Position numbers and translations under genes: made by a program. The notes beneath the pieces were generated by a model. It saw only the letters and a program-made list of their open reading frames with translations, made no database searches and had not been told where the DNA came from. Source: Crocinitomicaceae bacterium (GTDB lineage: Bacteria; Bacteroidota; Bacteroidia; Flavobacteriales_D; Crocinitomicaceae). From it: DNA of 64,000 nt. Location: contig PAQM01000028.1 of the NCBI GenBank assembly GCA_002709305.1, positions 1 to 64,000 of the forward strand, read 5' to 3'. This document shows, in pieces, positions 410-4,797 of this stretch (its first letter is position 1; each line of letters opens with the position of its first letter).

Positions 410-835
410 TTAATTCCAACTAAACTCATTCATATTAAACATCATTGGAGTAGAGACAACTACAACAGGACTTTCTTCTTCTCTATTTTCATATAAATGT
501 TTATAAAATAAATTGTTAATACACATAACCTCTTGAACTTTCGCTGGTTTTATCTCTGCTTCTTCAACTGGAATAGAAACCCAATCAGAAATATCCATTC
601 CAAATTTATACTCTCTTATTTTTTTGCCATCTTTTGTGTAAGAATTTGCAAGTGTGTAATCCTGAATAATACTTACAAATTCATCTTTCCACCATTGTTC
701 TCTAAGATAAAATTCTATAATTTTCCCATTGCTTAACTCATAAAATGACCAATACATTTTTAAATTCTTATACCGTTCAATATATTCGCCTTTATACAAC
801 CCATAATGTTTATATCTAATTACTCTTAATGACAT
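410..835 (-). CDS. Hypothetical protein, 141 aa, upstream of and co-directional with the methyltransferase
   Basis: ORF track; no recognised family. Confidence 0.6.
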   Translation of the reverse strand: MSLRVIRYKHYGLYKGEYIERYKNLKMYWSFYELSNGKIIEFYLREQWWKDEFVSIIQDYTLANSYTKDGKKIREYKFGMDISDWVSIPVEEAEIKPAKVQEVMCINNLFYKHLYENREEESPVVVVSTPMMFNMNEFSWN

Positions 836-895: not shown

Positions 896-917
896 AAAGT
901 CTAGTCGACTAGACTTT
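896..917. promoter_or_regulatory. 22-bp perfect palindrome AAAGTCTAGTCGACTAGACTTT (operator or terminator candidate)
   Basis: Direct reading; self-complementary over 11+11 bp with no spacer. Confidence 0.6.
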
Positions 918-995
918 ATTTATCCAAAAATATACTACTACAACATAAACTAATTACGTTTATAATTCAACCTATTTTTTAACACAAATAATGCT

Positions 996-1117
996 AAAAA
1001 AGAGTTTTTGAAAAATTCTGTTTTTTCACTAAAAAAGGTGATTTTTAACCGAAAAAGGCTATTTTTTGGCAAAAAAATGGCTTTTTCTGGTGAAAAATGA
1101 AGTTTTTTGACTTTTTT
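996..1117. repeat. Helically phased alternating A-tract/T-tract array (copy 1)
   Basis: Tracts: A 996-1001, T 1005-1009, A 1011-1015, T 1021-1026, A 1031-1036, T 1042-1046, A 1052-1056, T 1062-1067, A 1071-1077, T 1082-1086, A 1093-1097, T 1103-1108, T 1112-1117. Centres from 1023 to 1105 are ~10.3 bp apart. Confidence 0.85.
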
Positions 1118-1172
1118 AGATTTCGATAAATCTACAATTTTAAAATGTAAATTGTGCAATAATTTTAGATAA

Positions 1173-1325
1173 TTAATCCACAATTTTTCTGCGTACTAAT
1201 CTAGCTGCATTTTCTAGAGCTAAAATTATTTTTTCTTGAGAAGGAAGCCTTCCTTCTTCTCTTAATTTTTGAATAATTTTTAATAGCTCTTTTGGATTTA
1301 ATTTTTCTGTATTAGGAATTCTCAT
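1173..1325 (-). CDS. Small hypothetical protein, 50 aa
   Basis: Manual translation MRIPNTEKLNPKELLKIIQKLREEGRLPSQEKIILALENAARLVRRKIVD*; ATG overlaps the end of the upstream ORF; below track cutoff. Confidence 0.55.
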   Translation of the reverse strand: MRIPNTEKLNPKELLKIIQKLREEGRLPSQEKIILALENAARLVRRKIVD

Positions 1326-1677
1326 AATGATGGATTTTATAATATTTATTTTTTTCTAGTTTATATTCATACAATGACAACCCTGAAACATTTCCAGATA
1401 GAAGAGATTTTGATAGAATAGCAAAAGCCCTGTCCCCGTTAAAGAAATTAGGAATATCATTAAATCTAGGATGAATACCAAATTGAGAACCTATAAATAA
1501 TGGTATTCGTTGCTTTTCTATTCTTATAAATTCATCAAATTCTACCGTATCTATTATCTCTTTATCTATATCAAATTTTGGATAGCCGGTTGAAAGTTTT
1601 TTAAATCTTTTGTGACTATTTGTACCATCTTTCTTAAATCTTTTAATCCAATGTTTATTCCAAGGTTTATCTTGCAT
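1312..1677 (-). CDS. Hypothetical protein, 121 aa
   Basis: ORF track; no recognised family. Confidence 0.6.
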   Translation of the reverse strand: MQDKPWNKHWIKRFKKDGTNSHKRFKKLSTGYPKFDIDKEIIDTVEFDEFIRIEKQRIPLFIGSQFGIHPRFNDIPNFFNGDRAFAILSKSLLSGNVSGLSLYEYKLEKNKYYKIHHYENS

Positions 1678-1695
1678 GAATTCTTGTATTAATTT

Positions 1696-2817
1696 TTAAT
1701 TTATTTGAATAAACTTTCCACGAGACAATAATATTCTTGCATTTCCAATTTTAAATTTTGTGCCTTCTTTAATCGTTGCAAGATTATTTAGATCTTGTTC
1801 CATGGTGTGAACAGTTCCACCTGTTGCTCTAGCAATATTTAAATAGTTTGTATTTAACCTACTATTCACGCCGCAAATAATAATTCTAACTGGAATCTTC
1901 TTTTCTTTTAGATAATCAACAAGATACATATCACATGGATCTTCCCAATTATCCGCAATCATTAGAACTTTCTTTTTTTCTTTTGGAAATTCGTCAATTG
2001 CTCTACATACAGCTTCTAAGTTGTTTTCAATGTGTTTACCTTCTTTCATTGCTTTAAATGCAACATCCATAACTTTTCTATAATTACCTGAGCTTATCTT
2101 CCACATACCTGTTGGATCCTTTTTCTTTATCTGTGCAGTACTTATTTCATCATCATCATTAAAAAATATTATGTTCTTCATAGAACGCATTTTTTGATTT
2201 GCTTTGATCCAAAGTAAAAGCTGTGAAGTATATGGAGACATACTGCCTGTAACATCACAAACAACGAGCATATCTTTCCAATTTTCATTTCGTTCAAATA
2301 CTTTTAATAGTGTTGAATCTTCTGGTTTAGTTTTGCCTGAAACAATATCTTCTATTAATTTGTTTTCCGCATAATTTGTTGGCATTGGCCTGTAGTATAT
2401 CACAAACCCATGAAAGTATTTATCTATACCTCCTGTTTTTTCAACACCAGTTTGTTTTACTATTCGCCAAGAAACGACAGAGCGGTTAAAAGCTGAAGGA
2501 AGAGCACCAAAGAGTTCAATTATTCTTCTTTTATTAAGCTCTGTAAAATCATTACCCTTAGGGTAATCTGTATAAACAAGATCGACTGCAATTATTGTTT
2601 CTGATTTTAAAAGATCTGTTGCGGTTTCATTTTTTATCCTCCAGTTTCCTGGAGCCATATATAACTTCTGTATTTTAAAGCCATTATCTATTCGTTTATA
2701 CTTATCAATAACAAGGGTGTCTTTGATTTTTGTTCGTAACCTAATACTAACTTGAGATTGAGAAAATGAGTAATAACTAGACAATATAATAGCTATCGCT
2801 AATGAGAGATTTTTCAT
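1696..2817 (-). CDS. Secreted von Willebrand factor A-like domain protein
   Basis: N-terminal signal peptide MKNLSLAIAIILSSYYSFSQ; MIDAS-like DVTGSMS; vWA-like FFNDDDE and MIADNWEDP strands. Confidence 0.75.
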   Translation of the reverse strand: MKNLSLAIAIILSSYYSFSQSQVSIRLRTKIKDTLVIDKYKRIDNGFKIQKLYMAPGNWRIKNETATDLLKSETIIAVDLVYTDYPKGNDFTELNKRRIIELFGALPSAFNRSVVSWRIVKQTGVEKTGGIDKYFHGFVIYYRPMPTNYAENKLIEDIVSGKTKPEDSTLLKVFERNENWKDMLVVCDVTGSMSPYTSQLLLWIKANQKMRSMKNIIFFNDDDEISTAQIKKKDPTGMWKISSGNYRKVMDVAFKAMKEGKHIENNLEAVCRAIDEFPKEKKKVLMIADNWEDPCDMYLVDYLKEKKIPVRIIICGVNSRLNTNYLNIARATGGTVHTMEQDLNNLATIKEGTKFKIGNARILLSRGKFIQIN

Positions 2818-2874
2818 AGTTTGATAATTAAGGAGATTTATATTTATAACAAGTTTTAAGTGAAAAGTAACAGA

Positions 2875-3321
2875 TTATTTATCTTTGGTTTCGTACATCC
2901 TATGTTTTATACCAAACTTTTCAATTTGTAGAGTAACTAGGTCCCATCGTTTACCCCCTCTCTCTATTCTCCAAGCATATCTTATGTACTCATCATCTTC
3001 TAAATTATAATTAGGACATTGACCTTTTAATAAAGACTCCATATCACAGTTATCCGTATCTGTGAATGCTACATCTACTTGAGCATAACCAGGTTTTAAT
3101 ATATCTAACCCATTTTCTTTTAGAGTTTTTGAACATTTTTCTATTACAAACTCTCTTATTCCATTTCTGTTCCAATCTTCAACTGCATACCATTGAACAA
3201 TGTTCTGAATTTGCTTCTTGTTACTTACTCTGTTATTTACTTTTTGTGCAAAAACGGTTGTTTGGATTAAGAGAAAAACGAGGAAAAGATATTTCTTTGC
3301 AAGCTTCCCTGCTTTATGCAT
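2875..3321 (-). CDS. Hypothetical secreted protein (track ORF extends to 3453; internal ATG preferred)
   Basis: MHKAGKLAKKYLFLVFLLIQTTVFAQ is a signal peptide beginning at residue 45 of the track ORF. Confidence 0.55.
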   Translation of the reverse strand: MHKAGKLAKKYLFLVFLLIQTTVFAQKVNNRVSNKKQIQNIVQWYAVEDWNRNGIREFVIEKCSKTLKENGLDILKPGYAQVDVAFTDTDNCDMESLLKGQCPNYNLEDDEYIRYAWRIERGGKRWDLVTLQIEKFGIKHRMYETKDK

Positions 3322-3481
3322 GTTTTGCTTATAAGCGGATAGAAGCGTTTGTTCTTGAATGATGAGTCCATCTATATCAATTGTTAGATTCTTCGGATTC
3401 TTCTTCTCAATCTCGGTTTTGCTAGAATAGGGGTGTTGACCTTTTTTTTTCATGATGTAAAATTTTAAATGTTAAACAATA

Positions 3482-3597
3482 CATCATCAAGTAAACATGT
3501 AGAAACGCATATTGATTTAAGCAGTCGCTTCTCATCGTTTTTCCACCGTGCCCTGCGTTGGGTCGGTTGGCATTCCTTAAGGAAACTCCTGATGATG
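3482..3597. other. Candidate structured RNA or small mobile-element-like island with terminal inverted repeats
   Basis: CATCATCA (3482-3489) pairs with TGATGATG (3590-3597). Inside: CC/GG, ACCG/CGGT, CCC/GGG stem (3543-3570) and TTCCTTAAGGAA (3573-3584). GC-richer than surroundings. Confidence 0.4.
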
Positions 3598-3656
3598 ATT
3601 ATATAACGAAATTATATTTGATTTATTTCCTTATTATTTAGATAAAATGAAAATTA

Positions 3657-4181
3657 TCAATATACCGGTCTATAGATAATAAACTTGCCTTTTGTAATAT
3701 TCTTAAATTCAAATTTACTCAAGCTGACTTTTTTTCCTGAAGGTTTACCACCTTGTGTGTTTTGATGGGCTAACACAAAACCATGCCTGCCTTTAACTTC
3801 ATAGATAATTGCAGTGTGATTTCGCATTATCTCAGTATATCTTACTCCTTTATTGTCACGATACTTAAGTCTAATTCCTTTGAGTTGAATTATATCGCCT
3901 GGAAAAATGCACTCTTCTTTATAGTCAACTTTCCTCCCAAACTTACGTTTACCATCCCAGTTTGCATCAATTAAATTAAGAGGTACTGCGGCTAAATCCC
4001 AACAATAACCTCTTCCCACTATTCTATTTATTTTAGAAGAAACGAACTCAATAATCTTCTTATTTAATTCGGGTATATTATCGCACTCATAATTTAATTT
4101 AGAAGGTTCGTAAGTAAAAGAGCTAATAGGTCCAAAATTAAAACCTATAACTAATGATAATATTAAAACTTTAAGAGTCAT
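3657..4181 (-). CDS. Secreted CHAP/NlpC-like cysteine peptidase-fold protein
   Basis: Signal peptide; GRGYCWDLAAVPL (Cys), FPGDIIQ, NHTAIIYEV (His), LAHQN: typical C...H arrangement of papain-like amidases. Confidence 0.55.
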   Translation of the reverse strand: MTLKVLILSLVIGFNFGPISSFTYEPSKLNYECDNIPELNKKIIEFVSSKINRIVGRGYCWDLAAVPLNLIDANWDGKRKFGRKVDYKEECIFPGDIIQLKGIRLKYRDNKGVRYTEIMRNHTAIIYEVKGRHGFVLAHQNTQGGKPSGKKVSLSKFEFKNITKGKFIIYRPVY

Positions 4182-4241: not shown

Positions 4242-4344
4242 AAAATTCGCTTTTTTGATCGAAAAACACTCATTTTTATCAAATAAATACCGATTTCAGT
4301 CAAAAAACTGTCATTTTTGGTTAAAAATAGGCTTTTTTAGAAAA
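4242..4344. repeat. Helically phased alternating A-tract/T-tract array (copy 2)
   Basis: Tracts at 4242-4245 A, 4251-4256 T, 4262-4266 A, 4273-4277 T, 4281-4286 A-rich, 4294-4296 T, 4302-4307 A, 4313-4317 T, 4323-4327 A, 4333-4338 T, 4340-4344 A-rich. Confidence 0.8.
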
Positions 4345-4404
4345 CTTAAAAGTGCCTATTATTTAACCCCCATTAATAAATGATTTTAAAAATGTAAAAA
4401 ATAG

Positions 4405-4493
4405 AAAAAACCATCGATTTTGAGTGAAAAAGACTAATTTTTGCAAAAAAACAACCATTTTTGATTAAAAAAACACTGTTTTTTTTCGAAAAA
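4405..4493. repeat. Helically phased alternating A-tract/T-tract array (copy 3)
   Basis: Tracts at 4405-4410 A, 4418-4421 T, 4427-4431 A, 4438-4442 T, 4445-4451 A, 4458-4462 T, 4467-4473 A, 4479-4486 T, 4489-4493 A. Confidence 0.8.
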
Positions 4494-4542
4494 TTGAATT
4501 TTCAACTTTTCATATTTACTTTTTTATAAGACCATTTAAGTA

Positions 4543-4550
4543 TATCTTTG
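4543..4550 (+). promoter_or_regulatory. Bacteroidota -7 promoter element TATCTTTG
   Basis: Matches TAnnTTTG consensus 16 bp before the TTG start at 4567; no clear -33 TTG seen. Confidence 0.4.
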
Positions 4551-4566
4551 TTAAAAATCATTTTAA

Positions 4567-4797
4567 TTGCTTAAAAGGACTTTTACAATATTATTTTTTT
4601 TATTCTTTACAACATTTTGTTTTACTCAAACAAAACCATACAAGGAATATTATGAAACTGGTCAACTAAAAGTTGAAGGAAATCTTGTTAATGGAAAAAA
4701 AACAGGTGTTTGGAAATATTACCATGAAAATGGTCAGCTATGGTATGAGACACCATATAAAAATGGTAAAAGAGATGGTATAACTATATGGTATTAA
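4567..4797 (+). CDS. Secreted MORN-variant repeat protein (YwqK-like)
   Basis: Signal peptide; repeats YYETGQLKVEGNLVNGKKTGVWKYYHENGQLWYETPYKNGKRDG. TTG start. Confidence 0.75.
   Translation: MLKRTFTILFFLFFTTFCFTQTKPYKEYYETGQLKVEGNLVNGKKTGVWKYYHENGQLWYETPYKNGKRDGITIWY

Follow-up and report, generated by a model that had tools for sequence, protein, structure and literature searches.

Ten short tracts of A or T, spaced one helical turn apart and changing strand at every step, occupy about 100 bases of intergenic DNA in this Bacteroidota genome. The array (array 1, Table 1) is real and stands far above chance. It is also a genuine member of a class of curved DNA that is associated with promoters; its own promoter and its function are proposed from likeness to other arrays. 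Since arrays of the same design sit in register above strong promoters elsewhere, array 1 is most likely a bending element of the promoter type, and I put the chance that it is intrinsically curved DNA of the kind that lies upstream of promoters at a little short of even.

Table 1. Coordinates of the arrays and of neighbouring genes and sites.
Feature	Position	Strand	Description
Palindrome	898-915	.	perfect, 18 bp, AGTCTAGTCGACTAGACT; between candidate -7 box and gene 410-835
Gene	410-835	-	141-aa protein, no family; next gene left of array 1
-7 box	925-932	-	perfect, TATTTTTG; candidate promoter of gene 410-835
Outer A/T tracts	996-1117	.	A6 996-1001, T5 1005-1009, T6 1112-1117, around array 1
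Array 1	1011-1108	.	A5 T6 A6 T5 A5 T6 A7 T5 A5 T6, alternating tracts
Small ORF	1173-1325	-	about 50 aa; ends right of array 1
Gene	1312-1677	-	121-aa protein, no family; small ORF (ending 1173) downstream of it
Array 2	4250-4525	.	~20 tracts; blocks 4251-4338 and 4388-4525, gap of ~five turns
-7 box	4543-4550	+	perfect, TATCTTTG; right of array 2, upstream of ORF 4567-4797
Places with the 5-tract pattern	C28:1011, C28:4407, C26:10306, C6:185225		genome-wide pattern search

The tract centres run from 1013 to 1105.5, with a mean spacing of 10.28 bp. An earlier note had described nine of these tracts, from 1021 to 1108, and all nine, with their centres, proved exact on recheck; a tenth in-phase tract, A5 at 1011-1015 (centre 1013), lengthens the alternating run, and the helical phasing claimed by the note is supported. 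At a spacing of 9 bp from the last tract comes a T6 on the same strand, where the alternation stops; the T5 of the left flank is out of phase with the array. Spacers are 3-6 bases long and 60% G+C, and they do differ from one another as the note had it, although its list omitted the last one (tgaag). Only the scarcity of stops in the tracts keeps the 77-aa frame 950-1183 (-) open; a coding reading was rejected on this ground, and the frame is best read as a by-product of the array. A dispersed repeat was also rejected, other copies of the region being absent from the genome save for a 46-bp match at 80%. No DNA match across array 1 was found in relatives, and no known RNA family at array 1.

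The window, that is, the whole 64-kb stretch of DNA analysed here, was resampled in 100 Markov-1 and 100 Markov-5 versions. The longest alternating chain of tracts of at least 5 bases reached 4 in these versions (mean 2.3-2.4), and that of tracts of at least 4 bases reached 6. The shuffling check proposed by the note therefore sets the ten tracts of array 1 against a maximum of 4 in 200 resamplings of the window. Array 1 belongs to phased A-tract DNA, since its tracts of at least 4 bases recur every 10-11 bp through several helical turns, more than chance allows. Period and curvature statistics cover 786 kb (34%) of the genome, taken as stretches, while genome-wide counts come from a pattern search over the whole 2.3 Mb. 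For periods of 7-21 bp in the 786 kb, alternating chains longer than five tracts occur only near 10-11 bp (10, 8 and 6 tracts), and at that spacing the same-strand chains have no more than 4 tracts, which is the background level. The genome-wide scan for alternation that the note had suggested likewise came out in its favour: T4-A4-T4-A4-T4 at ~10 bp gives 33 overlapping matches in four places, with zero matches in this genome to either control pattern (same-strand; 15-bp alternating). Among the 248 Bacteroidota genomes sampled, this one is the richest in 5-tract matches. The alternating 10-bp pattern matches in 27 of the 248, the same-strand 10-bp pattern in 19 and the alternating 15-bp pattern in 13, so that at the level of the phylum 5-tract matches are only modestly above background. 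A 6-tract pattern is present in 6 of 399 genomes of the order.

Curvature was predicted with two wedge models, a dinucleotide Bolshoy-type model and an AA-wedge-only model. Over 110 bp, the predicted bend of array 1 is 152 degrees with the first and 120 degrees with the second, far over the genome background: the fraction of positions in the 786 kb that bend at least as much is 2.7e-5 and 1.4e-4, respectively. The Bolshoy-type model ranks array 2 first and array 1 second in the 786 kb; the AA-wedge-only model places an array on C26, array 2 and array 1 first to third. When the tracts and spacers of array 1 are put in shuffled order they bend less, the observed value being reached in 6/300 and 4/300 cases. 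The strong curvature expected by the note thus finds a counterpart in a predicted bend that is among the three strongest of the 786 kb in both models. The observation made in the note was right and its physics are plausible; curvature alone, however, leaves the strict strand alternation of array 1 unexplained. A rival reading is that A and T tracts pair within one strand into hairpins or a cruciform, or act in RNA. As DNA, the + strand folds better than its shuffles (z -4.6), and as RNA the - strand gives z -2.2, but any alternating A/T array gives such folding, adjacent spacers are complementary no more than by chance, and hairpins need neither helical-turn spacing nor a register with promoters. 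A single-strand structure is therefore very improbable.

What the note missed is that elsewhere arrays of such design keep a fixed helical register with promoters. When GTDB genomes were scanned for arrays of 7 tracts, at least 117 stretches came out; among the matches listed are many Bacteroidota, and also Clostridia, Fusobacteria, Nostoc, Bacillaceae and others. A 7-tract array is also present in eight viral contigs. Only 10/117 of the matches listed (5/46 and 5/71) have the array centre inside an ORF, against ~80% ORF coverage of the loci. In the 46 Bacteroidota loci among the matches listed, 26 perfect -7 boxes (TAnnTTTG) lie 20-39 bp past the array end, compared with ~1.6 per 20-bp bin further out. 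A box occupies the canonical place in 19 of these 46 arrays, six of them on both sides; in the other 27 a perfect box at that place is absent. Counted from the box's first base, tract centres in the listed Bacteroidota loci fall at -28, -38, -48 and so on to -108. Because the -7 box spans -12 to -5 (PMC9723704), these centres are at about -40, -50 and -60 from the start site. The phase lock to the box is strong among the matches listed (R=0.73, p~5e-7, n=27). The register was then held constant for a further search, whose loci may in a few cases overlap the first set; 20 of 33 loci were within 1.7 bp, against 11.1 expected. A similar register holds for the TTGAC/TATAAT promoters of other phyla (8 loci among the matches listed, p~0.009). 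Genes served by the arrays include those for tRNA-Asn, tRNA-Val, a tRNA-Thr cluster and HU. Either strand, A or T, can fill a slot, and a polarity rule fixing one or the other per slot was ruled out (R 0.14-0.20). This interchangeability would be expected if one array served divergent promoters.

The promoter register bears on a topological reading, according to which the curved DNA pins a supercoil tip between transcription units without touching one promoter. The extreme predicted curvature of the array would suit such a mark, and pinning of plectonemes by curved DNA upstream of promoters has been published (PMC6301789); the resemblance to that DNA, namely strong curvature over 70-110 bp between genes, is here a matter of sequence prediction. 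Against it, only four such places exist in 2.3 Mb, and arrays elsewhere are locked to promoters, which leaves this reading improbable.

Two further loci found in other genomes can be recorded here. At L055 (G023 C39:12314-12358), an alternating A/T array lies within a membrane-protein-like gene, in frame with its open frame of 635 aa. At L110 (C14 of G185, a relative within the order), an A/T array interrupts DNA that is otherwise rich in G+C; a DEAD-box-helicase-like gene lies on one side and a large secreted-type ORF on the other.

Array 1 itself lies between two leftward units, the small ORF and gene 410-835, and no Pfam family was found for the genes adjoining it. The perfect -7 box closest to it, read leftward from 932 to 925, stands 81 bp away from the nearest of the tract centres and misses the register by -2.2 bp. 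With up to 3 mismatches allowed, the palindrome beyond this box has no second copy in the window; it is followed by a T run on the - strand; it could be an operator or a hairpin, from its sequence. Relatives of the neighbouring genes are found in one 2.5-kb neighbourhood of a congener (G037): 69% for 410-835, 66% over 41 aa for the small ORF, 59% for 1312-1677 and 40% for part of 2875-3453. In the 14 kb around them, alternating chains of three or more tracts are absent. Since this congener keeps the genes without the arrays, the arrays are not a fixed attribute of these genes, and array 1, which is not kept with its gene in these relatives as an UP element might be, is a long, lineage-specific member of its class.

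Array 2, at about 270 bp longer than array 1, sits between the divergent genes 3657-4181 (-) and 4567-4797 (+), and the -7 box on its right is -3.7 bp off the common register. The two arrays flank one leftward gene block, and the related block of G037 is only partial. They might accordingly bracket a lineage-specific block (1173-4181) as a nucleoid-protein scaffold, HU or a hypothetical Bacteroidota xenogeneic silencer reading the dyad-symmetric alternation as a row of dimer sites and condensing or silencing the block. Strict alternation amounts to a 20.5-bp dyad repeat, which curvature alone does not require, and same-strand arrays are absent from this genome. I know of no such xenogeneic silencer in Bacteroidota, however, and no candidate was identified in this analysis; moreover, other genomes have the same design at promoters of housekeeping genes (tRNA, HU), which is the reverse of a silenced island. 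A scaffold is thus unlikely. Within the block, a SAM-I/IV riboswitch was noticed at 3503-3600 (-) of the window, above gene 2875-3453; the first ~50 residues of its product do not look like a signal peptide and could be a leader that has become fused to it. A viral origin was rejected, the VWA protein encoded between the arrays (1696-2817) having no peptide-pattern match in viral contigs.

The third array (G000 C26:10306-10401; L033 5306-5400) ends so near a lipoprotein/phosphoglycerate-mutase-like gene, ~15 bp from its ATG, that no promoter could fit on that side. Its spacers are more alike than shuffled ones (23/2000), as they would be if arrays had arisen neutrally, as repeats grown from a T5-N5-A5-N5 unit of 20-21 bp. 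Tandem intergenic units of this size with a T4-N6-A4-N5 layout, and with a T-to-A spacer conserved per genome (e.g. TTTTCGCTATAAAA), do occur at L160, L165, L186, L194, L200 and L233 (mostly Mesobacillus), at L130 (Neobacillus), at L133 and L153 (Nostoc) and at L213, L214, L218 and L226; present in several places per genome, they are possibly arrays for a regulator. The lack of arrays in G037 also fits neutral growth. The spacers of arrays 1 and 2, by contrast, are at the shuffled level of likeness (492/2000 and 235/2000), in agreement with the note's view that geometry and not spacer sequence is kept. Tracts and phase have therefore outlived the spacers, which suggests selection, and a neutral origin appears unlikely.

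The fourth array, on C6, lies above the HU gene and is the only one in this genome with the canonical promoter layout. It keeps register with its TATATTTG box to within 1 bp, and congeners have this array too; since DnaA-box-like repeats make part of the pattern, the array design is not present here in pure form. HU upstream regions of the genus (L277-L306; here C6:185225-185312) hold two DnaA-box-like repeats, TTATC(A/C)ACA, 20-21 bp apart, and in most congeners these stand directly above the conserved HU promoter (..GGATATT..TATATTTG). The sequence suggests that DnaA may control HU.

Returning to the promoter-type bending element, the ten tracts would line up about ten narrow minor grooves along the same helical face. 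In E. coli, the alpha C-terminal domains (alpha-CTDs) of RNA polymerase contact DNA at about -40, -50 and -60. Arrays of the same design elsewhere start near -40 and step upstream by ten bases from strong promoters, in the register of the alpha-CTD; so placed, they probably increase the occupancy of the promoter, both by contacts with alpha and by upstream DNA wrapped round the enzyme (or a supercoil tip pinned there). RpoA of this genome does have an alpha-CTD (LSVRALNCLKAAD...NFGKKSLTE), with the residues that bind UP elements in E. coli. An UP element ends at about -40 of a core promoter, in register. The HU array and much of the class do so; array 1 does not, and none of array 1, array 2 and the C26 array has an in-register box within the canonical 15-45 bp. 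Register among ordinary promoter candidates of this genome is not significant (184/1000). The likeliest client in the window would be the leftward promoter of gene 410-835, which would place array 1 at about -90 to -190. That array 1 acts on transcription, on which promoter and by which contact, is proposed from the class.

Phased A-tracts near bacterial promoters have long been known. Array 1 resembles UP elements, the sites of the alpha-CTD, in having A/T tracts one helical turn apart, and the class does so in the placing of its centres and this genome in its alpha-CTD; array 1 differs in its ten strictly alternating tracts and in lacking an in-register core promoter at the canonical distance. 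In Synechocystis, helically phased A-tracts are aligned with promoter and start site (PMC9825172), a likeness to the present class; that signal is a genome-wide average, however, whereas the arrays described here are rare, discrete and near-perfect, with no general trend of the genome's promoters. By that paper's own account, a cyanobacterium is the only case in which exact alignment of A-tracts with the core promoter has been reported genome-wide (PMC9825172). At H. pylori sabA, A-tract UP-like elements above the core promoter work through alpha (PMC4081817), an action that belongs to H. pylori; there, one hypervariable homopolymer tunes the alignment, whereas here there are many short tracts.

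A more speculative proposal, doubtful as it stands, is that long strand-alternating A/T arrays are distinct, repeatedly evolved extended upstream promoter elements across bacteria, reaching from about -40 to beyond -100 and often common to two divergent promoters. The alternation would then reflect recognition with dyad symmetry, either by dimers of the RNA polymerase alpha subunit or by a nucleoid protein, and array 1 would be a long member acting from a distance. Many Bacteroidota have discrete arrays that are locked to the -7 box and take A or T alike in any slot; these amount to an almost digital code for upstream curvature, and they make the choice between contact, curvature and supercoil pinning testable. 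Array 1 is useful in this respect because it has the geometry while an adjacent in-register promoter is absent.
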